In this document: positions 97 to 53,500 of the stretch, piece after piece
Layout: every line of letters starts with the position of its first letter
How positions within the stretch are numbered: position 1 is the stretch's first letter
Source of the DNA: Corythucha ciliata
Taxonomy: Eukaryota > Arthropoda > Insecta > Hemiptera > Tingidae
Reading direction: 5' to 3'
Assembly (NCBI GenBank): GCA_038030265.1
Contig: CM075938.1
Coordinates: 6,239,009 to 6,303,008 of the forward strand
Length of the DNA stretch: 64,000 nucleotides
Made by a program: the position numbers and the translations under genes
The notes under the pieces: model-generated
The model's input: the letters and a program-made list of their open reading frames with translations, nothing else
What the model was told of the DNA's origin: nothing
The model's database searches: none

Positions 97-3000
97 GTGT
101 CCTCACCATACGAATTACCATATTTTCTACTACTTTTACGACGGTTTGAAAGCTAAGGGTGAGCTCGAAAAATACAAGTTGGATCCCAACCGGCAATACT
201 GTTACCTAAGACGTGACATCGATGACGCTGACAAAGACCCCAAGGTATTCAACGCCAGCGTGGCGGTTGTGGGGGGGGGGGAGGGAGTGTAAGTCATTTT
301 TAAATGTAAAATTTTTAGGTTTCTCCAGGCCCCCGTGAAGACCCGGAAGGAAATGTAGAATGGTTTGAAAGAATCAATAAAACGTTGACAGATTTGGAGT
401 TCACCGAGAGTGACACTGAGTTCGTGTGGAAAGTTCTGGCAGCTGTTATTCTTCTGGGTGAAGTCGAGTACAAAGAAAATGACGACGGTAATGCTGACAT
501 CAAAGACGTCGATATTGTTGAGAGAAGTAGGACGAAAAACGACTTAAACTATTTTGATACGAATGAATGTAGTTTTCCCAATTATTTTTATTTTTTAAAA
601 AAAGTTGCGCATCTTTTGAGCGTCGATAGCAAGCGCCTCGCTTGGGGCCTCTGCAACTACTGCGTCGTCGAAAATGATACGGCGGCACGTCGAAAACACT
701 CTCGACCCGAAGCGCTTCAAGCTCGTAACGTTTTAGCTCAAACGATGTACGCCAGACTGGTTGACTGGCTCATAAATAACATCAACGTAAAATTATCAAT
801 CACAAGGGCCGTATTGTAAGATTCCCCCCCCCCCTCTTGAATATAACGTTTTTTTTCTCTTCCTAATTTCATTTATTTCTATCAAAGCGGCGATCCGCAT
901 GTGGTCAATATTTTGGACATGTTTGGTTTCGAGTGTTACTCATCTAACGGGGTTGAACAACTGTTTGTAAATTCCTTGAATGAACAACTTCATTACTTCT
1001 ACAACCAGAAAATATTCATATCAGAAATGGTTTGTGCTCCCCCTTCCCTTAGCAAGGTTTCAATTCTTCTGGGGAAAAATTGGTTAAACATGTCTGCAGC
1101 AAGATGAAGAGGAGGATGACATCGAACCCGTTCAATTATCATTTTACAATAATCGTGACACAATGGATGAAATTCTAAACAAACCCAACGGGTTAATGCA
1201 CATACTGGACGAGGCAAATAAAATGAATCTGGAGGCTGACTACGTTCTCGGTGAGAAATTCAACTGTCTCAAGCCACACACAAAATTATCATCTACTTCT
1301 TCTCTCTCCCCTGACCTTTCCTCGTTCATTTTATTTTAAAAGGCAAACTGCAAAAAAAGTCGGAGAGTCACCATGTGAAAAGAGAGGACGATGAACACTT
1401 TTCAGTGGCACATTACACCGGTAAGGTGACCTACGAAGCGGACACGGTTTGCTCCAAGAATCGTGATTTCCTACCGCCTGAACTGACGGAAGTTTTGAGA
1501 CAGTCGGAAAACACGGAAATTAAAACTTTGTTCACCAACAAATTGTCAAGGTATAATCAAGAGTTGTTGAAAGAAAACTGAGTATAGAAAGGAGTGGGCG
1601 GGGGGAGAGATAAAAATGACTCGGTTTACAGGTCGGGAAATGTGACGATCACCATGGAAAAAGTCGCCCCTATGAAGGCCAAGGGGAAAAAGAAATGGGG
1701 CGCTGCATTGCTTGCCGATTCCAGCAAATTGAGGGTATGTTGCAGAGTCAATTTGTTACATTTGGGAGGGTGCAGGGATGGGCAGTTCTCTCTCTCCTAT
1801 AGATCCGAAAGCGCAGCCGTAGTGAGGCAGCGTATTCACAATCCCCCTACCACCGGAATCACGTAGATATTTTTTGAGACAGTCGGAAAACACAAAAATT
1901 AAAACTTTGTTCACCAACAAGTTGTCAAGGTATAATCCAGAAAATATCAAATTTCGTAGGCATTCGTCAGGATTTTGGCGCTGTTTCATGATACCGTTTA
2001 GCCTGGGTTTAGCCGCGCCACAAAATAGGCCCAGAAACTGACAATTTTGCTTGAAATGTGACCGTGGAGGCGTGAACTGACGAACTCACTTGAAATTTCC
2101 ATTCCATATTCACCTTCATTTAGCTCCGAATCGGTCGTTCATAAAACAATGGGCGATCTCGATCCGGCTGGAACGTGGAGGAAGCTGTTCACACATTAAA
2201 ACAGTTATCAATACTTGCAGTTTCTCAAAAATCAAGATCCAAATATTGTAATGTCACTGCAGTTAAGACCCCAAACTTCCTGTTCCTTTGAAATTAGGCC
2301 GCGAAACTTGCCATTTCACAAAAAATAAGAACGACATTTTTGTGATTTCGACGGAATTTAGACCCCAAACAATTGGAAAAACAGAATAATAGTCGCGTTT
2401 GCACACTCAAAAAACGGTATATTCTTTATTATTCAACGGACAGTGTCTTCCATTTGTTATCGTACATCCTACTTCAAAACTCGTCAGTTTCACAAAGCCC
2501 CCGATAGGGTTCCCTCTGACGTCACAAGTCCAATTTTACATATTTATTTTGTATTGCTTTCAACACCCTCCCTCAATAAAAATAAAAAATCAAAATTTAA
2601 AAGAAAATCAATTTAACCCCAATTTTTGACGACATTTTTCAAACAGAGTCTTGTTTAAAGGTTTAGTGAAGATGTCGCCGACCTGTTCGTTTGAGACTAG
2701 GTATTCCAGATGGATAGTCCGATCCTCTATCTTTTCCCTTGTGAAGTGGTGTCGTATTTCCACGTGTTTCATTCTCCGGTGGCTTTCTGGATTTCTAGCC
2801 ACACGAATCGTCGATTGATTGTCCTCGTAGATTGTCGTTGGACTCTGTTGAGGACAGTCCAAATCACCCAACACTCGACGAATCCAGCAGGCTTCACTGG
2901 TTGCCAAACTCAAGGCTATGTATTCGGCCTCTGTGGAAGACAAAGCCACAGTCGGCTGCTTCTTCGAGGCCCATGATACGCAGTTGCCACCGACCATGAA

Positions 3001-6000
3001 AACATACCCCGATGTAGACTTCCGTTCCTTCTGATCTCCTCCCCAGTCTGAATCTGAATACCCCTCTAGAGCTGGCGAGTCAAGGGTTTGTCGGTAGGTA
3101 AGTTTGAGAGTCACGGTTCCTTTGTCATACCTCAGAACACGTTTCAAAGCTTTCCATAAGTCTTCGCTGGCTTCACTTTGAAATCGACTCAAGTAAGAGA
3201 GGCTGGAACATAAATCTGGCCTTGTGCCTAGCATGGCGTACATCAGCGATCCGATGAGCTGTCGACAGTTGGTCTCAACCGTTTTATCTGGATTCTTTTC
3301 TGTTTCTATCACAACGTTGGACTCTAATGGCGTGCTGGAAACAGGCTTACAGTCTTCCATTGCGAACTTCCTCAATACTTCTCTGAGATAATCGGTCTGA
3401 TTTATGGTTAGGATGCCATCTTTTACATTTTGTTCGATCTGGATTCCCAAAAAGTTTGCCGCTAAGCCGAGATCTTTCATTTTAAAGTATTTCTTCAGTA
3501 TTGATTTCAACTGGTTTACTTCCGCTTCATCCGTTCCGCAAATTAATAAGTCGTCAACGTAGAGTACGATGTATATGCGACTGGTTTCTGACCTTCTGGC
3601 GTAGAGGCAATAATCATTTTTTGATCTTGAAAATCCCTCTCTTGTCATGACGGAGTTGAATTTTTCGTTCCAACATCTTGGTGAACCTTTTAGACCATAA
3701 ATCGACTTGTTCAGCCTAACTACTCGATTTTTGTCGACATTCAAGCCTTCAGGCAACTCCATGAAGACTTCGTCTTTAATTTCTCCGTGCAGAAAAGCGC
3801 TTTTCGGCTTCGGCATTCCCACTTGATTCACTACGGCAAGTAGAATCCTCATTGTTGTAGATCTCTGACACATCTTGTTTTTCATAGTGCTGCTGAAATC
3901 CTTTTGCTACGAGACGTGCCTTGAAAGTATCGCCGTTCGAGTCCTTTTTTCGTCGAAATACCCATCTACAGCCAACGACACGGGCATTTTTTGGACGATC
4001 TATTTCCTCCCACGTGTTATTTTCCAGTAGGCTTTTCAATTCAGCTGAAATAGCCTCCTTCCAGTTTTCAGCATTGTCTCCATTCATTGCTTCGCAGTAA
4101 TTTACTGGGTCGTTTACATCGGCGACTAGAGAAAGCTCGTACTCATTGAATCTGCTTGGTGGTTTTATTTGACGTCTGTCTCTTAGGGTCACACCATCCG
4201 AACGTCGAGGCTGGTTTCTGGATGGGTCATCAGACACACTTTACTCATTGACGCCATCATCTTCCGGGTTAATTTCATCAGCGATTTGATTTCCTCCGCA
4301 ATCGTCCGTTCCGTCAACCTCTTCGTCTAGATCCGAGTTTTCTTCCAGCAAAATTCCTCGGCTGCATTGTTGTGTATTGTCGGTTTCCTTGGATTAATTT
4401 TCTGTTTCTTTTTCTTGGATAAATAGCAAATCACGAGACACCTCAATCTTCTGATCCAAAAGTACTCGATAGGCTTTCGTATTTTCCGCGTAACCTACAA
4501 AAATTCCTTGTTTACTCTTCGGGTCCCATTTTTGTCTTTTTTGATCGTGCACACGTACCATTACAGGTGATCCAAAGACTCGAAGCAAGCGGGAGTCGAA
4601 GTTTTTCTTGAACCACAATTGATAAGGCGTTTTCCCTTCTTCTGGACTAGGACCAGTGCGATTTAAGACAAAGACAGCGGTGTTCACTGCCTCTGCCTAC
4701 AAAACTTTCGATAAGCTTTTGGCGTGCAACATCGTGTGCGCGGCTTCAACCACAGTCCTCATTTCACGTTCTATTCGACCATTCTGTTGGGGTGTGTATG
4801 GGATTGATGTTTGATGTCGAATACCCTTCCTCTCGAATGCCGATTTGAGCTCACAGTTAACGAATTCGGTTCCACAGTCTGACCTGAAGATTTTTGTCTT
4901 ATTTCCGGTCAGGTTGATAAAGCTTAAAATTTTATCTTTGGCTTCCGATTTGTTTTTCAAGAAATAAACGGCACGATACTTTGAGAAATCATCCTTGAGA
5001 AGTAGAAAATATCTTGAACCACCGATGGACATTTCTTCCATAGGTCCACAGAGATCAGCATGGATGAGTTCTCCAGCATAACTCGCTCTTGACGAACTTT
5101 CACTGAATGGGCGTTTGGCGTGCTTCCCCACGAAACAAGCTTTGCAATTAATCTCCAAATGACTCGGGATGTTGAGGTCATTGGCCTTCAGCCAATTTTT
5201 AACGTGACGTGCGTTTTGGTGTGCCAGCTTTTCGTGCCAAAGCTGCAAATCGGATATCTCAGCAATAGTACTTAATGATTCACACTCGGTCGCTTCCGCT
5301 TTCACTGTTCTGTGAATTATTTTGTACAGCTGTTTATCTCTTACAGCTTCCAGAGACACCTATCCGTTTTTGTTTTTCAGCACGCATGATTTGTGGTCAG
5401 AAGACAACGTATACCCTTTGTCCAATGCCGTGCCTACGGAAAACAAGTTTACTTTTAAATCAGGAACGTACAGTACATCATCATGTCTGATGGATTTCCA
5501 TTCCGGTCCCACTTTGACTTCTAGTGATACGGATCCTCGTCCCACGGCTTCAATTTCCGTTCCGTCCCCAACTTTTACTTTGATCGGATCATACAGTGAG
5601 GTCAGATTTGAGAAGAAATTCGATTGACATGACATGTGTTGGCTGACTCCAGTGTCGACGTACCAGTCGTTACATTTTGTTTCCCCGTGAAACAACGCGA
5701 GAGTAATGAAAGCCTCGCCTTTCTGGTTTTCTTTTAACTTCCGAAATCGGCAGTCTCGCTGGAGATGTCCAACCTTTTTACAATAGTGACACGTTTTTGG
5801 CTTGACCGAAAAGTTCGAACGTTTACACTCTGCTTTCTAGTGGCCCTTCGGGCCACATCCGAAGCACACTCCCTTTTCTTTGTTTTCTCCTTTGAAACCT
5901 CTCGCAGCCAAGGCCGTCTCTTGCGTCGACGTTCCCTCACAACCTTTTCTTTCTTCTTCTATCAATAGGCGGGCCGTAAGATTGTTGAGACTTTGTTTTT

Positions 6001-21781: not shown

Positions 21782-22924
21782 TCAGCTCATGTCCATTTCC
21801 GATGTGAAGCGTGGCAACTCTTGCCACTCCATCGTTGCCAACGTGAAGCTCTTTGATACGAGCCAATTTCCATTGAGTTGGCTTTGTGTTTTCGTTTTGA
21901 TAGTTACAAGTGTCCCAACAGGAAGATTACTTCGAGGAAACCTCCATTTATTTCTTTTCTGAAGAGCTGAGAGGTATTCAGAGCTCCATCTTTTCCAAAA
22001 TTGTTGAAATAGTTGTTGTACTCGATTCCATCTGTGTACGAGAGGTTTCTCATCCGACAAGTCCGTTTCCGTAGGCAGATTAATAGGTCCACCGATGAGG
22101 AAGTGCGCTGGCGTCAATGCAGCTGGGTCACTTGGGTCGTCCGAAATTGGCGTGATGGGGCGTGAATTGATGCACGCCTCTATCCCTGTGAGTAGTGTCA
22201 TGGCTTCTTCAAACGTGCAGATTATTCCGTTCATAGTCTTGGCCATATGACGTTTGACAATTTTCACTGAGGCCTCCCATAGACCTCCAAAATGTGGCGC
22301 GCCGGGAGGAATGAAATGCCACGTCATCCCGAGATCAGCACATTCTTTGTGAATCATTTGGTCTGTGACTAGCGGTCTTAATTCCTTTTTAGCGGCGACA
22401 AAATTTGTCCCGTTGTCCGAGAATATAGCTCTGGAGACTCCTCTTCGAGCAAAGAACCTTCGTAAGGCTGCTAAGAATGCTTTCCCACTCATATCTGTTA
22501 CCAGTTCCAAATGAACAGCCTTAACCGCGAAACACACAAAAACTGCAATGTAAGCCTTTTGTCTCACCGATTTCCTTGTGCCGACTTTTATCCAAATTGG
22601 TCCACAGAAGTCAACACCTGTGTTTTCAAAGCATCGACCCATCGATACTCTTTCCTTGGGTAATGGCGCCATATACGGATGTATGGCGTTAGGCACCGCC
22701 CTCCTGCAGATTACACATCCGTGAACAACAGCTTTCGCTGCGCTTTTACCGTTAATAGGCCAAAACTCAGCTCTAACCAAACTTAGTAAGGCTTGGGGAC
22801 CAACGTGAAAATATTTTTTATGATAGTCCGATAGAATTAGCTGTGTTATTTTGTGTTTATATGGTAGGAGAACGGGATGCTTCCTCGCTTCCGAAATGTT
22901 AGCGTTGTTTAGCCGCCCACCCAC
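21782..22924 (-). pseudogene. BEL integrase, main part
   Basis: Zinc-binding region (HGCVICRRA), then catalytic Asp in NTGVDFCGP, Asp in FSDNGTNFV, and Glu in HFGGLWEASVK. The C-terminal chromo-like tail shifts frame near 21880: text resembling RPVVKLCPL appears in another frame before the LTR. The fragment starts at a repeat of the N-terminal part because of the array insertion. Confidence 0.92.
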
Positions 22925-22927
22925 TCT
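22758..22927 (-). repeat. Direct repeat flanking the tRNA array, left copy
   Basis: 170 bp of BEL integrase sequence identical to 24280-24448 apart from a one-base T-run difference and possible end bases. Its right end is exactly where the tRNA-unit array starts. Confidence 0.88.
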
Positions 22928-23120
22928 CTCACCGCACCACCCTAGTCACAACTGTGAATTCGAGGGAGTGGGGAGGTTCTTAGGGGAATACTCCCCTCCT
23001 CACCGCACCACCCTAGTCACAACCGTGAATTCGAGGGAGTGGGGAGGCTGAAAATAAAGAAATAAATCTTTAAATTAAATACCTACTGCTTTACTTGTTT
23101 TGAGTTCCGAGAAAAAATTG

Positions 23121-23196
23121 CTCCCCAGGTGGGCTTCGAACCCACGACCTCCTGGTTTCGCGCCAGATGCTCTTGCCACCTAAGCTATCTGGGGAG
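23121..23196 (-). tRNA. tRNA-like sequence, array unit 1
   Basis: 76-nt tRNA-like sequence; the acceptor ends CTCCCCA / TGGGGAG pair, the B box is GGTTCGAAGCC and the A box TAGCTTAGGTGG. The putative anticodon loop CGCGAAA has G at position 33 where T is expected, so a working tRNA is doubtful. Confidence 0.5.
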
Positions 23197-23555
23197 TCCA
23201 CGCAAAGAGCGAATCCACCCAGGAGAAATCCCCTCTCGGAACTCAAACTGCACCTAACGGGTCAGTGCATGTCATACGTCATTTCTAATGTGTCCGGCAA
23301 TTAATTGAATAATTGAGCTTTAGATGACCCTATCTACGGACATTTAGGGGAATACTCCCCTCCTCACCGCACCACCCTAGTCACAACTGTGAATTCGAGG
23401 GAGTGGGGAGGTTCTTAGGGGAATACTCCCCTCCTCACCGCACCACCCTAGTCACAACCGTGAATTCGAGGGAGTGGGGAGGCTGAAAATAAAGAAATAA
23501 ATCTTTAAATTAAATACCTACTGCTTTACTTGTTTTGAGTTCCGAGAAAAAATTG

Positions 23556-23631
23556 CTCCCCAGGTGGGCTTCGAACCCACGACCTCCTGGTTTCGCGCCG
23601 GATGCTCTTGCCACCTAAGCTATCTGGGGAG
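23556..23631 (-). tRNA. tRNA-like sequence, array unit 2
   Basis: Same as the unit 1 sequence with one change in the anticodon stem (plus-strand GCCGGATG in place of GCCAGATG), which alters a stem pair. Confidence 0.5.
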
Positions 23632-23990
23632 TCCACGCAAAGAGCGAATCCACCCAGGAGAAATCCCCTCTCGGAACTCAAACTGCACCTAACGGGTCAG
23701 TGCATGTCATACGTCATTTCTAATGTGTCCGGCAATTAATTGAATAATTGAGCTTTAGATGACCCTATCTACGGACATTTAGGGGAATACTCCCCTCCTC
23801 ACCGCACCACCCTAGTCACAACTGTGAATTCGAGGGAGTGGGGAGGTTCTTAGGGGAATACTCCCCTCCTCACCGCACCACCCTAGTCACAACCGTGAAT
23901 TCGAGGGAGTGGGGAGGCTGAAAATAAAGAAATAAATCTTTAAATTAAATACCTACTGCTTTACTTGTTTTGAGTTCCGAGAAAAAATTG

Positions 23991-24066
23991 CTCCCCAGGT
24001 GGGCTTCGAACCCACGACCTCCTGGTTTCGCGCCAGATGCTCTTGCCACCTAAGCTATCTGGGGAG
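23991..24066 (-). tRNA. tRNA-like sequence, array unit 3
   Basis: Matches unit 1 across the tRNA-like region, including the non-T base at position 33. Confidence 0.5.
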
Positions 24067-24279
24067 TCCACGCAAAGAGCGAATCCACCCAGGAGAAATC
24101 CCCTCTCGGAACTCAAACTGCACCTAACGAGTCAGTGCATGTCATACGTCATTTCTAATGTGTCCGGCAATTAATTGAATAATTGAGCTTTAGATGACCC
24201 TATCTACGGACATTTAGGGGAATACTCCCCTCCTCACCGCACCACCCTAGTCACAACTGTGAATTCGAGGGAGTGGGGA

Positions 24280-24448
24280 GGCCAAAACTCAGCTCTAACC
24301 AAACTTAGTAAGGCTTGGGGACCAACGTGAAAATATTTTTATGATAGTCCGATAGAATTAGCTGTGTTATTTTGTGTTTATATGGTAGGAGAACGGGATG
24401 CTTCCTCGCTTCCGAAATGTTAGCGTTGTTTAGCCGCCCACCCACTCT
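24280..24448 (-). repeat. Direct repeat flanking the tRNA array, right copy
   Basis: Partner of 22758-22927; its left end is exactly where the array ends. Together they look like a ~169-bp target duplication around the array. Confidence 0.88.
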
Positions 24449-24784
24449 TAAAATTCCGTTTTCATCAGAGAATGCAGCTATCGGCAAGAGCTTACTGTCT
24501 TTAGATAGTAACTTTCCCTTCGCCAACCGAGAAACCTCTTTTGGGAATGCTTCTGCTTGAACGAGCTTCAAAACTGCAAACTTCGCTTCTTTCAATTCTT
24601 CTGACGATAAAAATCCGAGCCGTTTTGTAACAGTCATCCGAGCTTTGCAATTATGGCTAAATCTTAAAATGTAAGCCACAATTCGTAAAAGAGTTGACCA
24701 ATTAGAATAACGCGTCGTAACGCCCATTTCATCGGTTTGGACTGGGAGAGAATAAGTGAGTTTTTTTGTCTCAGGACAATTCAA
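24305..24784 (-). pseudogene. BEL integrase, N-terminal fragment
   Basis: Pre-integrase segment with VGGRLNNANI and the HPVLLPYKHKITQLIL motif typical of BEL/Pao, cut off where the tandem array begins. Its last ~169 bp (24280-24448) are repeated at 22758-22927 on the far side of the array. Confidence 0.85.
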
Positions 24785-24844
24785 AAGTGTCCTCTTCCAG
24801 GTTGGCCAGTCTCGTTGATTTGATTTTAAAAATTGTGGTCCTTC

Positions 24845-25933
24845 TCACCAAAGTTGATTTTTTGTAAATTCCGTCGTCACTTCTCCCCTTGAAGCGATGT
24901 CAGCAGGATTTTCGCGCGAAGCTACGTGATGCCACTGTTTCGGGTTTGTCGATTCTTGTATGATTGAAACCCTGTTGCCAACAAACGTCTTCCATTGTTT
25001 AGGACAACCATTTATCCACGAGAGAACTATTTCCGAATCCGTCCAGCAATGAAAATCAAGACCAGAATGTACCTTTAATTCCTTCAAATGGCTCAAGAGT
25101 TTGACTAGAAGAACTGCAGCCAAAAGTTCACACCGAGGCAGCGTAACCAAGTTTAGAGGGCATACTCTTGCTTTAGCCATCAACAGTCGTGACGAAAATT
25201 CTTTCTTCATGTCATCCCAGGACCGAATATAAATGCACGCTCCATATGCCTTTTCTGAACTGTCACAAAATCCATGAACTTCAGCGTATGTGAAATGACG
25301 TGTCACAACGCTACGAGGAATTCGAATTGGACCCATCTCTTCGAATCGTTTTCGAAAAACTAACCATTTTTCTTTCAGTGAATCCGGTAGTTGGTCGTCC
25401 CACGAGATAGACTCTCTCCACAGTTCTTGAAGATACATTTTTCCCCGAATCAATAATGGCGCCAACAATCCCAGCGGGTCCCAATACCCGTTAATGTCTG
25501 ACAAAATCGACCGTTTCGTGACTGAAGATCGCTTCCAACTCGATATTTCGAAAATTAATTGATCAGCTGAGGGATTCCAGGTGATTCCCAAAGCTCTAAT
25601 AGGCTCGTCACCACCGAGGTTAACACAGAAGTGTTCAATGGGAGCTCCCGACAACGCTCCAGATTCGCTCATCTTAGCCATGAACTCGGGGGAGTTGGAA
25701 CACCATTTCCTGAGAATAAAATTCTTTTCAGCCAGGATTTTGTAGAGTTTCTGCTGGGTCGTTAGTAAGTCGTCTAGTGAATCACACCCGGTTACCAAAT
25801 CGTCCATAAAAAATTGTTTCTTAATGATTCGAGACATCTCTGGTTCCTTTTCTTGAATTTCGTCCGCAATATAATGCAGGCACCTTATAGCTAAATAAGG
25901 AGCAGGAGCTGTTCCGTACGTTACCGTATTCAA
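24845..25933 (-). pseudogene. BEL reverse transcriptase palm and RNase H, 3' part
   Basis: Continues the polymerase in another frame, beginning LNTVTYGTAPAPYLAIR. The catalytic box reads FMDDLVTG. Connection and RNase H motifs follow (LSDINGYWDPLGLLAP, FCDSSEKAYGACIY, LPRCELLAA, WTDSEIVLSWI, RENPADIASRG). It ends at a TGA at about 24845 where this family normally has a second Trp. Confidence 0.92.
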
Positions 25934-28500
25934 TTTGTAATGCCGATCAATTTATTAGGATCCTCTCTCCAAAGAATTCGTTGGAAGTGCCGATCTGACT
26001 CCGATACCCAAATTTGCCGAAACAATTTCGCAACATCTGCGGTTAATCCGAAACGTGAAAACCGAAATGGAACCAATACATCTGAAATATCGTTTTGTAA
26101 CACCGATCCGACCATAAGAGCATCATTCAGACTTAAGTTTTTGTCTCCTCTGAACGAAGCATTGAAAACGACTCTGAGACTCGTGGTGGAGCTCTCCCTC
26201 AAAACTGCATGATGTGGCAGGTAGTAATTAGGCCTTTCTATCTCTTCAATTGGTAGTCTCTCCATGTGACCGAGTTCTATGTACTCATTTATGAACGCAA
26301 GGTACCTTTTCTTTAGTTCCGGATTTTTCTTAAAACGTGCTTCAAGAGCAAAAATTTGTTTCCGCGCACCGAACATGGAATTTCCGAGTTCCTCCGGGGA
26401 AATTTTAAATGGAAGTGAAATAATGAACCTTTGATCATGGTGAAATTGAACCGTATTTTTAAAATGATACTCACACTGTAGGTTTTCTTCCGTTCGCCTA
26501 GACGATTGAGAAGGCAGAGTCTTAGCCTCCGATGAAAACTCTAGCTCATCGCTGTCAGAGCCAGACCCGATGGTAAAAGAATTGACCGCCCGCGTGGATT
26601 TTTGTATTTCACCGACAAACACCCAACCGAAACTAGTTTTTATAAAATAACAATCCTTGTTGTCTGAATCCGGATAGAATTTTCCTTCTTTGAGAGTCTC
26701 GAAGAACATTTTACTGCCTATAATACCGTCAATATCGTCAGCTGATAACGAGAAAATTGTTGGATCAGCAATATTTTCCCGTACATGAGTGGGCAGATTC
26801 CACGATTCCATTTTTAAATGCTGAGCTGGGAGCCTTCCCCCAACAATTTTGGGCAGAACAAAGAATTCAATGTGTCTTGAGAAATCCGAAATTATTGATT
26901 TTATTTTTGCCGAAACATAACCTGGGGAATGAGTTTTCACACTGCCAATGCCGTTTACATCCATTTTACTGTTAATTATTTTCAAATTTAACCTGTTGAC
27001 GAATTGTTCCGAAATGAAATTTAGTTCCGAAATGAAATTTAGTTCCGAAGCCGAGTCCAGTAGGAAACGTCCAAAATGGGAACGACCGTCGCTAGATGGA
27101 AATTCGATTAGAGCAGTAGGGAAGATAACCTCACCCTTAATATTCGATGACAAAGCCGTGGAAATGCAAAATGAGTTTGATGAAACTGATTCCTCAATTT
27201 TTGTGAGGGGCCGTGATGAATTATTTGAGGGGCCGTTTGAGGTAGATGACGGGGACTGGTTGCATAGCAGGTAATTGTGTTTTTTGTTACACTTGGAACA
27301 CAGTCGACCCTTGCAATTCGCTGCTTTGTGCGAATAGCCCAAACATTGCCAACAACATCCGATTTTACTGACCATTTCCCTCCGATTGTCAACTGATTCC
27401 TTGAGAAATTTCCCACATTTGAAAACAGGGTGATCAGAAGATCCACATATTTTACATTTAGACCCATCAGGCTCGTTACTTTGAGACACCAAAGCCGTTG
27501 ACACTCCCCGCTTGGATGAATGAAGTTTCCCAGGTATTTCCTTTTCATTTTTCCTCTCAAATGCTTCCAAATAGTTGTACTGCCCGATTATAAATTCTTC
27601 AAGCTCTGAGTACTTCGGCATTTCTTTAGATGCTGCTGATTTTTGCTCCCAAGCCCTGAGCGTCCCTTTGTCGAGTTTGGACGTAAATAGATACGTCAAG
27701 AATGGGTCACCTGATTCTATTGATATGCCCATTTTCTTTAGAGCATTTAAGTTTTTGACAAAAACCCCATGTAATGACCGAAGGTCTTTGGCTGATTGGC
27801 TCTCCAGCCGCTTGCAATTAAACAAATTCCCCAAATGTGACTCCGTGAGTAATTTATTATTTTTGTAGTGTTGAAGCAATTTATCCCAAGCGAATTCATA
27901 ATTTTCGTCCGCCAAGCCGATACCGTCAATGACTTGAAGTGCTTCGTTTTCCAGGGTGCTCAACAAATAATGAAACTTTTGGATGTTTTTCAGCTGTTTG
28001 TTATCATGTATAATCGCTTTAAAGGTGTCATAAAAACGAAGCCAGTCTTCATTATTACCGGAAAATCTTTCAATGTTAACTTTAGGAATTTTAACTCCGA
28101 TATCCCCCGCGTCTGGTGTGGATCCCACACATTTAAGGTTGTCTGTTTTGTCAGAATCCGATTTTGTTAATTTGGCTGACAAAATGGCCCGAGCTTCATA
28201 AAATAGGTCTTGTACCTCCGTGTATTCGTCCCCCGTTAGATTAGTTGTTTGAGCAGTGTCTAATAACTCAAAATAGCACTCCTCGTATTTCGTGAAAAGA
28301 TCCCCCAAATTAGTCAATTTTGATTCCAAAATTAGTTGATCCGATGAAGTTACGTCCGTGTTGACTGCAAAGTCATAAATCCGCCGAATGTTTACCTCAA
28401 GCAATCCAAGCTTCGAATGTGATTTTTGAACATTTGAGTTCGTTTCCCCCGTGTCCGATTTTGATTTGGTTATCTTATTGGATTTTTTTCCAGAACGCAT
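25930..28500 (-). pseudogene. BEL gag-protease-reverse transcriptase, 5' part
   Basis: An 856-codon open frame starting MRSGKKSNKITKS. It carries a DUF1759-type gag region (KIPKVNIERFSGNNEDWL), zinc fingers (CKICGSSDHPVFKC, CWQCLGYSHKAANC), a retropepsin-like site (FLLDSASELNFIS) and the start of reverse transcriptase (SLRVVFNASFRGDKNLSLND, TADVAKLFRQI). A 15-nt in-frame tandem duplication near 27010-27045 repeats ELNFIS beside the protease site. The frame ends at TGA near 25931, where a frameshift separates it from the rest of the polymerase. Confidence 0.93.
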
Positions 28501-41562: not shown

Positions 41563-44500
41563 CTTTTCTATTAATTTAAATATGAATCATTAATTCAATT
41601 TGGTCCAATAGCTATACATATAACTTATATCCAATAAACCTCTTACCCGATGAAATATAATAACTGTTCATAATAAAACTCTTTATCCTCCACCCTCCTC
41701 TCTCCTTGCAAAAAACTAACAGACAAGCAGCACGCCTAAATTGAAATCGAATATTCTTCTTCCACTTCTTCCCTTTTAATTGTATAAAAAGCCTCCGAGA
41801 GCTCGACCTTTTGCTTAGTAGTTGTTATCGTGAAGTAACGTTCAGTTGTGTTCCATTAATAAACTTTTTTTCTTTTTTTAAAAACGAGTTTTTCGGTCTC
41901 GCGGATTTATTTGGCGCAGTCGGTAGGACAGTCTTCGCGGTTCATTGTGAAACGTTCGTTTTAACGACAGTGGAAGACATCCTCACCTATAAAGGAACCA
42001 ACGCCAGTGAACGATAAAACCACGGTTCACTACTCGAAGCCACAGAAAAAAAAAGACGGCATCAAAAAGGCCATACCCGAAATCAGCAAAGAGGAATGCT
42101 CTACCTCCTACTGTGAGTAGTAGTTATTTTGATTGCTTAGAGAACATTGTGTTCCCCTGCCAATCACCGCCCGATTTCGAAAAATTAAAAATGAATCATC
42201 AACAACAACAAGAAGTTCAACCCCAAGGCCAGGGCGTTAACTTCGGCCCCGAAACGCTCAGGGCTTTGCAAAGGCAACTCCGCGCCTTAGAGCCACCTCA
42301 AATAAAAAAATGTCATCTCGACATGGTCCCCGAATTTCAAGGGGAACCTGAAATTCTTCAAAAATTTATAGAAAATAGTGAAATCCTTCTCGAAAACTTC
42401 ACAAACCCAGAAGATCCAACCAACATTCAAACCGCTTCGTTTTGAATGGGATCATCGCAAAAATCAGAGGCCCCGCGGCCCAGAAAATAAACTCCCACCC
42501 CTTTTCAACGTGGGCGGAAGTGAAGAACGCTCTACTCGCTTCATTCAACGACAAAAGGGACGTCTACACCCTTTTAAGTCAGCTATCAACGCTAAAACAA
42601 AACTCCAAGTCCGACTTCGAATATTTTGACGAAGTACAAAAAACCCTCCACTTAATAATTGCTCAAATTCGTAATAATCCCTTAGAATACTCCCCCACGC
42701 TAATTCCTTTTATGGAAAAATATGCTCTAAGGTGTTTGTTAAATGGGATGAATGGGTTTGTGGGGAATATTTTAAAAACTAAGTCGCCGAAAGACTTAAA
42801 TGAAGCCGTCTCCCTCCTAACAAATGAATATCAATTTTCCAGGCGGGGAAACTCTTCCAACACCCAAAATCAAAAACCCCGCACAAGCCAAATCCAAACA
42901 CGCAATATCAGAAACCACCCCCAAAATATACTAGCAATAATTCTTACTTTACTCCCGCTCATCCAACCTTTTCGAAACCCCGTTATAACCAGCCTTTCAA
43001 TAAAACTCAGAACTATAATTTCCGGAAAAACGATTACACACCTGAACCAATGAGTGTTCAGACAACTTTAAATAATTGTGAAACTCAGGAACCATACGAA
43101 ACTTCTGATTCCGGAGACCATTTTTTAGGGGAAACTGCTGTGACGCCAGACGCATAAACCTTATGCACCTGGAAAAGTCACAGCAGCTACCTTTTATTAC
43201 CTCACCCTCAAACTTAAAAATCCTCATTGACACCGGAAGTTCGAGCAGTTTTATCAAAGCCTCTATCAGCGAAAAGATTCGAGAGGATAACTTTTCTGTA
43301 AAAACCGCCCATAGCGAGAGCTCTGGGACACACAGCATTGTGCTGAGCAGTAAAGAATTTTTCGGGAAAACTAAAGTCCCATGTAAACTTTTCATTTTTA
43401 ATTTCCACGATTCCTTCGACATCCTTCTCGGGTTAGACACCCTTAGGAGGCTAAAAGCCACGTTGCAGTTAGGAACGGGAACAAATACATTGAAATTGGG
43501 GAAAACAAGTATACCCCTGGAAATGCACTCCGTCCCTCAAGTTGAGGGAAAATTCCCTATTAAAGGACGATCTGGTAGGCAAATTGAACTCCATTTGCAA
43601 GGAGTGAAAAATGGTACAGCCCTAGTTCACTACAGTCGTGCCGGAAATATCGAAATCCCCGAATGCCTTGTGAACGTAGAGGATCACAAAGCCTACTGTC
43701 TTGCAATTAACTTGGGAAATGAAGAAAGAAAAATCGCCCTCAAAAGGTCTGAACAATCTAGAAGCGGAACCCTGCTGCATTGAGCAGACAGAGTCCAAAA
43801 TTGCCTGGGAAACAGAGGAAGTACCAAATAATAGAGGAAGAAACAAAACAAAAATATCAGAACTCATTGGTAAAATGAGATTAGACCATCTCAACAGGGA
43901 GGAAAAAAGAGAAGTGATAAAAGTCATCACCGAATTTTCAGATATACTTTATGACGAAAATCAAAAATTGAGTACCACAACAGGTGCCAAACGCGTCATC
44001 CGTACCACAGACGAAATACCCGTGTATTCCAAATCTTACAGATATCCAGAAATCTTTAAAACAGAAATCAAATCTCAAATTAAGAAACTCTTAGAAGACG
44101 AAATAATTCAACCGTCGAACTCCCCTTATAACGCCCCTATTTGGATCGTCCCTAAAAAGAAGGACGCCTCCGAAATTCCAAAATACAGAATGGTAATTGA
44201 CTACAGGGCGTTGAATAAAAAAACCATCGACGATAAGTACGATCTGCCTAATATTGAAGATATACTGTCAAAGTTGGGAAATTGTAATTATTTTATAACC
44301 ATAGATCTTGTATCTGGCTTCCACCAAGTCGAAATGGAAAGATCGAGCGTCCCCAAAACGGCGTTTAGAACGGAAACAGGAAAATGGGAGTTTCGAAAAA
44401 TGCCGTTCGGATTAAAGAACGCCCCATCTACTTTTCAAAGACTTATGGATAATTGCCTTCGAGGACTCCAAAACGAAATATGCGCCTGTTTCATGGACGA

Positions 44501-47500
44501 CATAATCGTTTTTAGCACGAGCCTCCAAGAACATTTAGTCCGCCTCAGACAAATCTTTGAGCGGCTTAGGCGGGCGCGTTTAAAGATTCAGTTGGATAAG
44601 ACAGAATTCCTCAGAAAGAACTGTGTTATCTTGGTCACGTCATAACATCAAACGGTATAAAACCAAACCCCCAAAAGGTGGAAGCAATCACAAAATTTCC
44701 AATTCCAAAAACGCCCAAAGAATTAAAAGGTTTCTTAGGACTCCTCAGCTATTACAGGCGATTTATAAAGGACTTGGCAAAAATATCGAAGCCTCTCAAA
44801 TAAACCCCATTGACGCAGACTATATCGAAAGCTTTGAAGCCTGCAAGAAACTTTTAATCGACGACCCCGTATTAAAGTATCCAGACTTCAAAAAACCTTT
44901 TATATTGACAACCGATGCGTCCGGAGTGTCACTTGGCGCCGTATTATCCAAAACTCCGTTATCTCCCATAGAAAGATTCCACTCGACGATAATTGAAACC
45001 ATCCGTGCTCTGAACGATAGCAAAGAGTTTAAAAGTTGTAGTATCAGCGAAAAAATGAAATATGCCGTACTATCATACAATAACAGCATTCACAGCACAA
45101 CCAAACTAACCCCTTTCGAAATTCTGAACGGTCATATCGGGAACGACCACCCTCTAACAGTCGATTTGGAAGAGAAAATAACAAATTTGTACGTGGATGA
45201 CCACAAAGAAAAAACTAAACAACTTTACGAATTGATTAAGACAAGGGAAAGCACCAAAAATAACTTAGTCATATCCTCTACCGAACCTCTCAGAACCTCT
45301 ACCGAAATTTCCCGACAACGTGTACGTTGAACGTGTACGTACGTTCAAATGCCGACCTGAAACGCTAACAGATATTGAAAAAAATTCAAAACGGCCCTTA
45401 TACAACCTCAACACCATAACACCCGACCTAAAATCCACACTTCCAAAATAAAACGCCCTCGACAAACAATCCCTCCTGGCATAGTTTCCAAGTTAAACGA
45501 CGCCCAGAACGAAAACTTACCTAAGAATCAGACTATAAAAACAGGATTTAATTTAGTCCTTACTCGGGAAGATTTCCTATCACTTAAATACCCAAATTGG
45601 CTTAACGATAATATAATAAATTATTACATGGAATTGATACAAGCCAGAAGCAATAGTGACCACAGTTTCCCCAGATTACTCCGTGATCTGGAAAACTCTC
45701 TCGCCTTTTGTAAATTGGGAATAATGCACCCCAGTATAGTCCCTTCCGACGAACTGCAAACCGAAATTAAAAACATTTCGACTAAATATTAGTCCAGTAA
45801 AATTATGAAAAATAGGGGAAAGTTTTGGAGTAGTTTTGAAATTTGGTACTATTAGGTATTTTGGGGTGCTGAACACGAATATGAGGTTTGGTAACAAAAT
45901 TTTTTAACGGAAATATGTTTTTCCCCCCCAAAACTACAAAATTTCGGGTTTTGCCCTGTCGTTTTGAAAATAACTCCTAAGCTATGCAGTTTGGCTAGAA
46001 AACTCCTAATGTTTAATAAAAGAGCATTAAATTTCCTACATTTCACGTCTTTGAAATTTTTTCGTGCGATCAATTGTTTAGCCGTCACGCTTGATTATCG
46101 TCCGACGAAATAAAAACAGGAATCACTTCTTTTTTTATATACTCAAGGAATCAATCTCTCCTTTTACTAAAATGAACTCAATGAGACGTTTTTGTTGGTC
46201 AATGTCAGTGTTGGTCTATGGTCTAAATTTAGAATTTACTAGCTAGTAATATTTATGGGATGAAGATAGTTGTTGGTGGGGGGGGGGGATACACTGAAGG
46301 TGCGAGTAGACTACAGATGGATTTGTGAGGTTCGTCTCGTGGCCTGGAGATGGATGACGTTGCAAACCCATGGGGGCCCTAGTGATGAGTGATGAACTGA
46401 TGACCATGCAGTAAAGATGGCCTTGGGCAGGAGTGGAGGAGAAGCGGGGCGCTCTCCGGTGGGGTACCTCACTCCGAGTCCTGTCCTCTAGTCAAAGCAT
46501 CGAAATCGCTGAATGGTTTGTCCATCGTTTAGTTATAACGCGTCTCGTTTTCAGTGTTTGTAAAGTGAATGATTTTACAAGTTTTTTTTTTCGCACTATG
46601 GTACTGTGTTTCATATGTGACTCGTCTTAGAAGGTGGAACGCATGTGACTATACTGTGAAAAGTCGAGGTATTAAATCGCTTATAGCGTCAAGCATGAAA
46701 AGAAAAGACGGAAAGCATGTATTTCTTGGGGGGAAAACAAACATTGATGTGCATGAAAAATGTCGAACAGCATACAACAATGAACGGATGATCCTAGCAT
46801 TTGCCAAAAGGGCTCAGGAACAAGGTGCTTCCACATCTCAAACAGTTTTAAGGTCTTCGGTGCCCCAGTTCACTTTTAAAAATCATTGTTTTCTATGCGG
46901 AGAATGAATTTCGAGAGAGTTTCTTGCCGCTGAAGCTAAACGGCCTGTTCACTTACGCAATACAGTTTATGTTGTCCGTCATCTTGGCTTAAGAGCGACA
47001 GTGCTGGAGGCAGCGCGAGCTCGTGATGACGACTATGGACGGGCTATCGTTCAACGAATAGAGACAGAAAATGATTTGGTTGCTGCTGACGCTCAATACC
47101 ACATCAAGTGCCATAAAAAGCTGTATCAAAGATCAAAATCTCAGGTACAGAAGAAACGGGGCCCTTTTGCTGAAGAAGTGGACAAAGCCATGCAGTGTGT
47201 ATATGAATACCTGGAGAACCAAGATGAAGAGTGCCAGTTCTCATTGAAGAGTTGATCGCTCAGATTAATGGACCTTTCCAACCTGATCTGAAAACTGTCA
47301 AGGCACGGTTGAAAGAGAAGTACGAGGACGACATACTCTTCGCGAGCAACAAGAAGCACAAAACTGTTTTATGCTTCAGGAACATTGGAGAAAAAATATT
47401 GAATGAAGCTTGGTACCAGCAGACATGCGAATCACCGCAAGATGAGAGACTTCGAGTTGTTCAAGCTGCAGCAAAAATTATTTGCGAAGACATTCGGTCA

Positions 47501-50500
47501 AAAGTATATGATACCAACGAGTACCCTTCCCCAGACCGTTTCATGGAAGAAAGTGAAAATGCCATTCCTGCGACGCTCAGCTGTTTTCTGGAAACTGCAA
47601 TTACTTACCGTAGAAAAGGGGAAACTTCTGATAAAATTTTAAAAAAAATGCACTGCTATTGCCCACACTATAATTGCCGCTGCAAGGCCCAGGTCATTTG
47701 TGTCAAATATATTAGTCGGACTTGGCGCGTTTATCTACAGGAAGAGTGGATCCCGAAAGTTGGTTGATGTTCTGAGTGCCATGGGATTTTGCAGTTCGTA
47801 CAGTGAAACAACACGTTTTGAGATCTCTGCTGCCATTCAGCCTCCAAAGAAAGTCAATCCAGAAGGATTTGTCCAATTCATTTTCGACAATGCTGATTTC
47901 AACACACAAACAATTGACGGATACAATACATTCCATGTGATGGGTGGGATCTGTGCTGTGAGCCCATCTTCTGCTGTTCCCTCTGGTGACCCTATACCAA
48001 GAATGAAAGCCACTCCACATTCAGAAGTGGTTGGACGTTTTGGGGCAGTTCCTGTAAAACACTTTGAGTTTTCAGAGGGTGGTCGTGGACTCAAGGGTAT
48101 TACTATTCGAAACCTATCTGATGAATTCGCATGCTCCGAGAACGTTCCCCTCAGCACACCTGAAATTGTTTGGTTGTACAGAAAAGAAAAAAATATTACT
48201 AGTGTTCCAGGGTGGAATAAGTTTATGGAACAACTGACAGCGGACTTAACTTATCAGAGCACATTCACTGCGTATTTGTCATTCTTAATGGCCCTTCCAT
48301 CTGACTACGACACCATATACACTGCATTGCTGATGGCTGCAGAGAAGTGTAAAGAAAGTGGCCAAAATACGTGCATGGTGACCTTCGATCAGCCCCTATA
48401 CTTAAAAGCCCGACGGATTATAGCTCATTCCACTGACCCGAGGCTGGAACATGTCGTTCCAAGGTTGGGCGGTTTTCATTTGCTCATGTCGTTCCTCGGC
48501 GCCATTGGGTTCATCATGGAGGGTAGTGGTCTCACGGAGCTGTTCAACACCGTTTATGCCATGAATTCAATTAACAAGATTATGTCTGGCCACGCATACT
48601 ATAGGGCTGTACGAGCTCACTTTTTAGCTCACTCAGCCCTCATTAAAATCGTTATGGATATGATAGAACTCAGTCCAGAAGCCGAAGTACAGTTGGACGA
48701 AATTCTGTACAGCTTCGATAAATCGGTTATATTTGCTCCAAACCCTGAGGAATGCCGTGAAGTGAGAGAGAAGGTCGAGCAGCAACTTAAGATGTTAATG
48801 GAACGTGGAGCCACAGCACAGCTATGGGTACAGTAAATTGAACTCGTGAATCTCGTCAAAATGTTCATCGTTTCTGAAAGAATGGGTAACTGGTCACAGC
48901 ATCTTAAAACAGTGTGGCAGATGATTCCGTACTTTCATGCGTCAGGCCACTTTTTGTACGCTAAATGCGCCTATTTATATTTACAAGATATGATAAACTT
49001 GGAGCAAGCGATGTCCATAAAAGAATATGACCAATTCATAACGCAGGGTTTCTTTACGATTCGACGTGCACCAAAATTCTGGTGTGGCACATGGACTGAT
49101 ATGGTCATAGAACAGTTTCTTATGAAGAACATGAAAGTCCAAGGAGGCCTCACCCATGGAAGGGGTGTGGGGGGAAGGCGTATTGACAAGGTGGACAATG
49201 GGTATGACTTCAGTGCAGCACGTCTCAGAACAAATCGAAACATTCTGTGGTGTTACAATCCATACGTCAGACCAGCATGTAGCCCTAAAAGACTCAACCG
49301 TCACAAGGGATCAAAAGGATTCGAAAAAAATGCACGAATGGTTGATGCAGCATCTCCCCTTCCCAAACAACTCCTCTTTGTACTCAATTTAGTTCGGGCG
49401 TTGTGGCTGACGAACGTGTCAATTGTCATCAGGCAAGAGCGGTGGGCGTTTCAGGCATCAACAATATTGTTGGTGACAACTTCGAAGATGTGAAATTCAA
49501 GCGAAAAGATCGAGTCCAGTCCCTTGCCACAATGAACAGTGCGATACGAATTGAAAACAACGAATTGATTCCTGTCAATCCCACAACATTCTTCCAGCGT
49601 ATTTCCGTCGCCAAACATTCAGAAGATGACCTCAAGGAGTTCATGACCTATGATTTAGGACCGTACTCCATGTCCTTATTTGACAAAGGAACTATGAGGA
49701 AAGGCACGAAATCAACATTATACAAACAGCTCAAGCCCAGACTCAATAACCAGTTGACAGGTTCAGTAAGATACATAATTGACGGGGGTTTCTTACTACA
49801 TCGAGTTGGGTGGCCAACAAATGAGTCGTTCTCCGCCATCTGCGAGCGATACGTCGAGTATATCCAACAAAAATACCCAGAGGCAGTCGTCGTCTTTGAT
49901 GGCTACCCCGACTACCGTCAAGGGGGAACAAAGACGGCTGAGCGGATGAGGCGGTCAAGAAAATACGCTTCAGCTGACATGATTTTTGATGAATCAATAA
50001 TACCAACTGTGTCCAAGGATAACTTCCTAGCTAATCCCAGCAACAAGAGCAGGTTGATCGCATTGCTGTGCAACAGGTTCTCCTCAGCTGGACTGGACTT
50101 CGAGCAAGCGGAAGAAGACGCTGATACTCTCATCGTTGAGGTAGCTTTAAGCTTTGCGCCGTCCACTGATACGGTGGTTGTCGTGGGCGAAGACATTGAT
50201 CTCCTGGTAATTTTGATTGGGCGGTGCAGGGCAGACAATGTGGTGTTTCTCAAACCCGGCAAAGACAAGGTCCCAACAACTACATACTCACCTCTTCTTG
50301 CTGCCACGTCACCACTAAGAGACCACATTCTTTTCATCCATGCTATGAGTGGTTGTGATACGACGTCGGCGCTCTTCCGTCAGGGAAAAAATAAATTCGT
50401 CAAAACCCTAGAGAAGAAACCAAGCCTGGGAAACTTGGTGGCAGTATTTAAAAACGCTAATGCCTCTCAAGGCGACATTGCTTCTGCAGGAGAACGCTTC

Positions 50501-53500
50501 CTCGTTTCTCCCTACGGGTATGGCGGACCATCAGCTCCTACTCTCAACTACCTGAGGTATCTTGCCTACAGCAAGTCAGCATATAAATACACCACCAACA
50601 TCGCAGCGTTACCACCATCCTCGGAGGCAGCCCGTCAACACTCTCTGCGCGTGTATTTCCAAGTCCAGCAATGGCTTGGGGTCCACAAGAACCCGGAAGA
50701 ATGGGGATGGAAGCCGACTCCTTCGGGACTGGAGCCCATTGCGACTCTCCTTCCTCCGGCACCCCCAGCGTTGCTCAAGTTGGTCTCGTGCAGATGTACA
50801 AAGACCTGCCATCGCAACTGTGGCTGCAAGAAGGCAGGGCTGCCTTGCTCGGCTCTGTGTATTAACTGCGAAGGAACCTGCAGTAATGCTCCGGTGGACG
50901 ATGAGGACCGCGAGGACGAGGAAGGTCTTCAGGAGGAGGCTTTTTTCCCCCAAGAGCAACAACAGGAGTCTGCCCAAGTTTCGGAAGAAGAGAGCGAACT
51001 ATCTGAATGTACGTAATAATAATATTCATAATCTATATAATAGTGTTTTAATAGGAAACATCACTCTAATTGTATGCATCTATGTTCTGATTTCCAGATG
51101 AATGAGGGTGGAATTACTCAAGGACCAACAATTACCGTCGCATCTCGAATTCGTACTCTTTTTTAATTTCTACTACTCTGCCCTAATTTTTGAGAATAAA
51201 CTCTGTAAATGGCTCATTGATATGTTTCCAAAAAGTCCATTATACCATTGAAACATCATATTGAGTCAGTTATTATAGTGCAAGAATGCCCCCCCCCTCC
51301 ACATCCTCCTTACATCAACCCATGGTACTAACTCGTGAATTCCAGATGTATACCAAATACCAATATGCAATATAAAACACAATATTGAGTCACCTTTAGC
51401 GAAAGAAGGTTGAATGCAGCGTAAAAAGATGAAAAAATGAATTTTTATTTTTAGTTTGTCGGACGAGAAACAAGCGTGACGGCTAAACGGTTGATCGTAT
51501 ACTAAAAAACTTGAAAGACATAAAATGTAGGAAATTTAATGCTCTTTTATTAAATATGAGGAGTTTTTCTACCCAAAATGCAAAGGTTAGGAGTTTTTCT
51601 CAAAATAACAGGACAACTCCCGAAATTTCGTTGTTTTTTGGTGAAAAAACATATTTCCGTTGCAAATTTTTGTTACCAAACCTCAGATTCGTGTTCAGCA
51701 CCCCAAAATACGTAATAGTACCAAATTTCAAAACTACTCCAAAACTTTCCGCTATTTCCCTTTAATCCGTCTAATTTTACCGTGGACTATATCCCCGAGA
51801 ATCCATCCAACCTTTTGACAGCACCTTAGACTACGAACTTAACATCAATATTCATTGCTCCATTAAACAAGACGTAATTTTGTATATCCTTCAGTTACCC
51901 ATTTTTAGTAACACCCCCTTTGAATTTTATAGCTTTTATTCTGTACCCATCAAATTAGATTCAAACCCCGATTTTGTTACAATTATACCCCATTCGAAAT
52001 GGGCAGCAACGGACAAGAACTTAACCATTCAATTCACATTCAATCAACCCTGTTACAAATTAAATAAAAAATTCTACTGCCAAACAAATAATGTAATCGA
52101 TAAGAATGTGTCTTGTGAACAACTAAACTTAAGAGAAAATTCTAATAAGCAATGTACATATTCTAGGATACTCTTAAATAGGCCCTACTTTAAAAGAATC
52201 CCTGAAGCTAACCAGTTAATCATAGTTCTCCCCCAACCTACCAAACTAGAGATAAAAAATAACCAGCAGACTAAGTTCCTTCAATTAAAAGGATCCTTCC
52301 TCGTCCAACCGCTTAAAGAGGTAATTTTTCTAAACAAAACTCTTCTTACCAGCTTCCAGGAATCCATCGGAAAACCGAGAATCCCATTCATAGAACATGA
52401 CACAATTTACCAAAAATCCCAATAACGCTGAAAGACTTTGAAACTCTACCTACGGAAGACCTCTTATGGCCTACAAACCTCGAACGATCCCTACAATATC
52501 TTCCACAAACCGAAGATGATATCCACTTAATTGTAAGCCCTTTGTATGCTCTAACTTTAATCGTATCATTAATCCTTATTGTGCGGTATTTAATAAATAG
52601 AATAAGAGCTCTCCGGAAACCCAAAAGTGATCCCCCTAGCATTAACATTGAAAACCTCGACACCGTCCATGTCGAACCCCCTTCACAAAAAACTCCTTCG
52701 CCAGACACGGCTCCTATCATTTTGCCTTCCCGATCCGTGTCCGCTCGTAAGATGGGAGGACTTATATCCAATAAACCTCTTACCCGATGAAATATAATAA
52801 CTGTTCATAATAAAACTCTTTATCCTCCACCCTCCTCTCTCCTTGCAAAAAACTAACAGACAAGCAGCACGCGTAAATTGAAATCGAATATTCTTCTTCC
52901 ACTTCTTCCCGTTTAATTGTATAAAAAGCCTCCGAGAGCTCGACCTTTTGCTTAGTAGTTGTTATCGTGAAGTAACGTTCAGTTGTGTTCCATTAATAAA
53001 CTTTTTTTCTTTTTTTAAAAACGAGATTTTCGGTCTCGCGGATTGATTTTATGTTTATTGCGATGCCAGACATTTTAATGGGAGGCAGGAAGGCAGGATC
53101 CCGAAAACTCAGTATCACTAGAAATTCATTTTGTACTCACACGTATGCTGGCCTTTTTGTATATTTTGGAGAATGTCTTGTCCAACCTTCTGAGCAGCAT
53201 GATCAACGAAGGTCTCATCGACTCGTTATTCCAGTCAGTGAAGTGCATCAATTGCGTCATGTAGAGTTGAAGCCCTTTGCAAGACATTGTGTCTGGGTCG
53301 TACGGCGACGCTTTGAGAAGGCTGTGGGCCACGTCTGCGAGCCTCTTTCATTGTTCAAAAAAATAAAAAGTGAAAATTATGAGCTGCAAGGTGGGGGTTA
53401 GAGTGAAGCTGGAAAACGTTGAAACTTCTAACTGCAACTGTGGACGAGGGTTTTCTCCACTGGTAAGAGTTCAAAATAAGACTTAACCACTATAGAAGTT

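Follow-up and report, generated by a model that had tools for sequence, protein, structure and literature searches.

Does the stretch of Corythucha ciliata DNA analyzed here (contig CM075938.1, positions 6,239,009 to 6,303,008; 64,000 nucleotides, hereinafter referred to as the window) carry a DNA transposon of a kind not yet described? A preliminary description had proposed so for an element at 45790-51789 that encodes a FEN1/PIN-like nuclease. Our analysis indicates, with a probability of about 0.88, that the element belongs to the AcademX lineage of the Academ superfamily: a once autonomous DNA transposon, now decayed, that has inserted into a Gypsy-like retroelement and codes for a protein with two predicted nuclease folds. 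AcademX, reportedly defined by Kojima in 2020, has an XPG-like nuclease. The proposal of a DNA transposon with a nuclease was upheld, but "undescribed" was an overstatement, since AcademX is already in print (PMC10045372); a superfamily already catalogued, the outcome that the preliminary description had itself named as speaking against its claim, is very probably what was found.

Boundaries of the element and its insertion site

The transposon copy spans exactly 6,000 bp (45790-51789) and is bounded by inverted ends of about 350 bp. The left terminal inverted repeat (45790-46136, plus strand), which starts with TAGTCCAG, paired in a local alignment with the reverse complement of the right one (51432-51789, minus strand), and both ends read inward from TAGTCCA (TAGTCCA...TGGACTA). 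In the outer 330 bp, identity was 88.6% (279 of 315 ungapped columns), and the alignment scored 435, compared with a maximum of 32 among 200 shuffles of the left arm, in agreement with the inverted ends of ~330 bp reported initially.

An empty site was found in all three fetched paralogous stretches of the surrounding Gypsy-like retroelement. In each of them, the match to the left flank stopped at 45789 and the match to the right flank started at 51789, with a 4-base overlap, ATAT. This overlap of the flanks at empty sites is direct evidence for insertion of the element. As one A of ATAT is the terminal base of the element itself and the ends are symmetric (TAG...CTA), the target-site duplication (TSD) is the 3-bp TAT proposed previously, with its left copy at 45787-45789 and its right copy at 51790-51792, and the flanks meet on a single TAT in the paralogous stretches. 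On the flanks alone, a 4-bp duplication with one base fewer at the right end may also be compatible. The automatic end-finder gave a false inner TAG as its top candidate in the window; the second candidate was adopted because the paralogue flank matches fix the ends.

The interior gene and its predicted catalytic domains

Residues 22-1448 of the 1,463-amino-acid protein encoded by another copy in the genome (L011) were collinear with 46653-50941 of the window in frames 1-3-1-2-3 (tblastn). Because the protein maps in order across changing frames, the interior gene is a frame-shifted pseudogene of one long protein of ~1,470 amino acids. The single interior gene reported earlier is accordingly single by origin but now broken, consisting of five frame segments, with an in-frame TAA (48834-48836) within the core region.

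All five segments lie on the plus strand. The N-terminal part (46653-47249; L011 residues 22-217) shows a Cys/His pattern in the consensus of alignment A1 and is probably zinc-binding and DNA-binding, and a second N-terminal part (47243-47623; residues 216-342) follows in a different frame. The predicted DDE transposase core, an RNase H-like fold with a helical insertion, occupies 47685-49202 and contains the in-frame TAA. A linker part in a different frame (49177-49464; residues 860-965) leads to an open reading frame (ORF) at 49403-51016, in which motifs, mapping and the fold predicted on a relative (P0003) point to a FEN1/EXO1/XPG-like nuclease with a C-terminal CXC cysteine cluster.

In the core segment, D68, D235, D472 and E476 were invariant and D71 was nearly invariant; D84, D250 and E492 (P0003 numbering) were present in 76 of 76 alignment rows. 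No significant match came from a Foldseek search with the core model (best E 0.4), and when the model was aligned on the Foldseek candidates with VIA-align, transposases or RAG1 filled the top 17 rows. The best match of the alignment A1 profile against PDB was an unrelated protein, 4m0m_A, in the N-terminal part (E 0.0011). The middle of the protein is predicted to fold as a P-element/hAT-like RNase H-type DDE core, and this kinship to P-element and hAT transposases would provide a structural lead for placing Academ. The conserved central region had been put forward as a second catalytic centre; given the predicted fold and the conserved residues, it is best read as the putative primary one.

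Pfam DUF6589 matched the core in four of six scanned relatives (P0059, P0063, P0081 and P0102), two of them above the cut-off. Since these matches fall in the transposase core, DUF6589 would, at least partly, represent an RNase H-like transposase core. None of the papers searched mentions DUF6589.

The ORF at 49403-51016 holds all the quoted Asp/Glu motifs (IIDGG, VVFDG, EEDADTL, GEDIDLL and SGCDTT) together with the cysteine cluster, as the preliminary description had stated. The Asp residues of the nuclease (D713, D852, D854 and D909 in P0003 numbering) were near-invariant (74-76 of 76 alignment rows), and the predicted fold, modelled on P0003 and not on the window ORF, matched the EXO1/FEN1/XPG type. 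Profile comparison of alignment A1 with PDB gave a weak match to EXO1 over the nuclease part (E 0.042), and the match of P0003 to Pfam 5_3_exonuc_N (E 0.03) was under the cut-off. A PDB sequence search with the nuclease ORF and the L020 protein returned weak, unrelated matches only, and no Pfam match above the cut-off was obtained for six window segments and four intact proteins. As the sequence and profile matches are weak, the assignment depends for the most part on the predicted structure and on residue conservation, by which the C-terminal domain is placed in the FEN1/XPG nuclease superfamily. The fusion of such a predicted nuclease to the mobile protein, claimed initially, was borne out.

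Copies in the genome and relatives in other species

Genome searches returned at least 83 nuclease matches and at least 112 core matches; these counts comprise the best candidates listed and are lower bounds. For 54 of the 83 listed nuclease matches, a core match was also listed no more than 3.5 kb upstream in the same orientation, and 54 of the 112 listed core matches had a listed nuclease match downstream, so that 29 nuclease and 58 core matches had no partner among the matches listed. A match without a partner is no evidence that the other domain is missing, because the lists hold best candidates only: when five core matches lacking a listed nuclease were fetched, four proved to have one downstream, and in the fifth (L038) the 3 kb retrieved aligned no further than P0003 residue 660. 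Six copies (L011, L020, L022, L023, L024 and L025) have an uninterrupted ORF of 1,463-1,538 amino acids, and L013 has one of 1,326 amino acids.

Ends were examined in 23 copies, namely 20 chosen from the best matches, L029, L030 and the window copy. Both ends, of the TAG(T/G)NCAG type, were resolved in 17 copies, which spanned 5.9-7.4 kb, excluding the deleted L030 (3.7 kb). Thirteen of these had an exact 3-bp duplication (TAT, ACT, TAA, AGT, GAT, TTT, TAT, GTA, TCA, CGG, TTT, AAA and CTA), two a 4-bp duplication (L018 and L022) and two none (L015 and L020; in L020, two candidate end pairs were tried, both without a flanking TSD). The duplications varied in sequence among copies, and a 3-bp match is expected by chance in ~1/64. 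A constant 3-bp duplication, as anticipated, was hence the rule among resolved copies but not without exception. Ends were not resolved in L012, L017, L019, L024, L027 and L029. L024 (TAGAAGG ends) and L029 (an inner TAG, the outer left end being lost) had TAG/CTA candidates without a TSD, and were placed in this group because their ends either differed from the TAGNNCAG type or were not terminal.

Four copies (L022, L023, L025 and L026) were 99.5-99.7% identical over ~7.3 kb and had four different duplications; L022, L023 and L025 of this subfamily keep uninterrupted ORFs of 1,500-1,538 amino acids. Another group (L010, L011, L013, L014 and L015) was 99.1-99.6% identical. Near identity combined with different duplications indicates that relatives of the element in the same genome were recently mobile.

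Within the window's own family, L029 was 98.3% identical and near full length, with the outermost 33 bp missing from its left end, and L030 was an internally deleted derivative of 3.7 kb flanked by a CTA duplication. Both are located on one contig, ~80 kb apart. The two have the right flank in common (score 230 in a global alignment of the 233 bases compared) but not the left one (66/273 ungapped), and are therefore probably not independent insertions; a duplication including the right part of the element is suggested by this pattern. The ends did not in every case enclose a full homologue of the gene, as L030, with its internal deletion, shows. A genome search with the left repeat gave at least 44 matches, many without a partner among those listed; most of them were not fetched.

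Outside this genome, a protein search found 139 relatives; 120 were listed, and most of these spanned almost all of the query region. Named hosts among those listed were beetles, moths/butterflies, wasps, ants, a whitefly and a soft coral. Long proteins from other species aligned across both the core and the nuclease. Several relatives were annotated only as "Tesmin/TSO1-like CXC domain-containing".

Proposed mechanism and alternative explanations

In the mechanism we propose, the Cys/His N-terminus would probably bind the element ends, and the predicted DDE core, with its invariant Asp/Glu residues, would cut the ends and join them with a 3-bp stagger. The FEN1/EXO1-like nuclease would probably act on flaps or branched DNA, trimming or resolving them at the element ends or in the target, and the CXC tail may bind zinc. 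Insertion leaves a 3-bp, sometimes a 4-bp, duplication. We tentatively suggest, as a possibility that is rather doubtful at present, that the nuclease is an obligate second catalytic step, trimming 5' strands or flaps after the DDE nick-and-join and thereby setting a TSD of 3-4 bp versus the 9-10 bp of AcademH. If so, transposition would use two unrelated nuclease folds within one chain.

The AcademX assignment has to be weighed against a superfamily distinct from Academ, in which the combination of DDE core, FEN1-like nuclease and 3-4 bp TSDs arose convergently. Two points weigh against our assignment: kinship to Academ was judged by description and not by alignment with Academ references, and the domains have no Pfam name, the core of some relatives matching only the uncharacterised DUF6589. 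Nevertheless, coding content and TSD length both fit the printed description of AcademX (PMC10045372), and long relatives occur in insects and a coral, including Bemisia tabaci, for which 1,097 Academ copies have been reported (PMC9143410), a link made by species only. A separate superfamily is thus considered unlikely.

Even less probable is that the nuclease alone mobilises the element as a FEN1-like transposase, with a merely structural middle part. Its near-invariant Asp residues would suit such a role, but the middle is predicted to be DDE-like and retains D84, D250 and E492 in every alignment row; moreover, we know of no transposase with a FEN1 fold. The frame changes in the window copy could suggest that the nuclease block is a host gene captured between the ends of an unrelated element. 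This explanation is scarcely credible, being contradicted by the single ORFs that join core and nuclease in six copies (L011, L020 and L022-L025) and by the long proteins of other species that align over both parts.

Host retroelement and other elements in the window

The transposon sits within a Gypsy-like retroelement, whose reverse transcriptase and env-like ORFs were identified from translations at 43701-45330 and 51880-52425. The final 111 bases of the left flank matched other copies of this retroelement. The left flank splits at ~45679, where two paralogous copies carry 1,117 extra bases; the host copy therefore seems to be internally deleted. Elsewhere in the window, translations revealed BEL/Pao-like retroelement ORFs (21782-28500, minus strand) and a Copia-like polyprotein fragment (2608-3885, minus strand).

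Comparison with known systems

Several established superfamilies were considered and rejected. P-element transposase has neither a FEN1-like domain nor a CXC tail, and P elements make 8-bp TSDs; comparison with the P-element transposase 6p5a_A gave 9% identity, and the P element was rejected on the TSDs of 3-4 bp, with which the empty sites agree. EnSpm/CACTA elements have CACTR ends and a 3-bp TSD, and were rejected on the ends found here (TAGTCCAG or close variants). PIF/Harbinger, with its TWA target preference, was excluded as only one of the 13 three-bp TSDs fits TWA, and hAT was dropped on its defining ends or TSD. The C-terminal domain resembles EXO1/FEN1/XPG nucleases in predicted fold and acidic residues, but differs from them in its transposase fusion and downstream CXC cluster, with 13% identity to 5v09_Z. 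KolobokE, KolobokP and KolobokD are likewise DDE transposons with a nuclease of their own; theirs are of the PD-D/ExK, His-Me finger and DEDDh types, respectively, and not FEN1-like (PMC9587614).

As a new kind of element, the discovery does not stand; its value lies in a well-documented family that offers long open, near-identical copies and a predicted model for each catalytic domain, and in the question of what function a flap nuclease of the repair type has within a transposase. Among the papers searched, none joined an Academ transposase with a flap endonuclease, or with a DDE plus nuclease domain, and the term AcademX occurred in one.

Academ is counted among the DDD/E superfamilies (PMC9587614), and bivalve Academ elements have a mean length of 5,565 bp (PMC10294476). 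According to PMC10045372, AcademH encodes a helicase and has TSDs of 9 or 10 bp, AcademX encodes a nuclease and has TSDs of 3 or 4 bp, and the difference in TSD length is proposed to be related to the encoded enzyme. AcademH, although of the same superfamily by the literature, was rejected, as the element has a nuclease and 3-4 bp TSDs and no helicase family came up when the four intact proteins were scanned against Pfam with E values of up to 1 allowed. With AcademX, the element shares the predicted RNase H-like DDD/E transposase, the encoded nuclease and the 3-4 bp TSD, and no difference was found in this comparison by description. Since every testable feature of AcademX was present, the element is best filed as an AcademX family, matched by description with no reference protein aligned; it is very probably an AcademX-type family in this host and not an undescribed superfamily.
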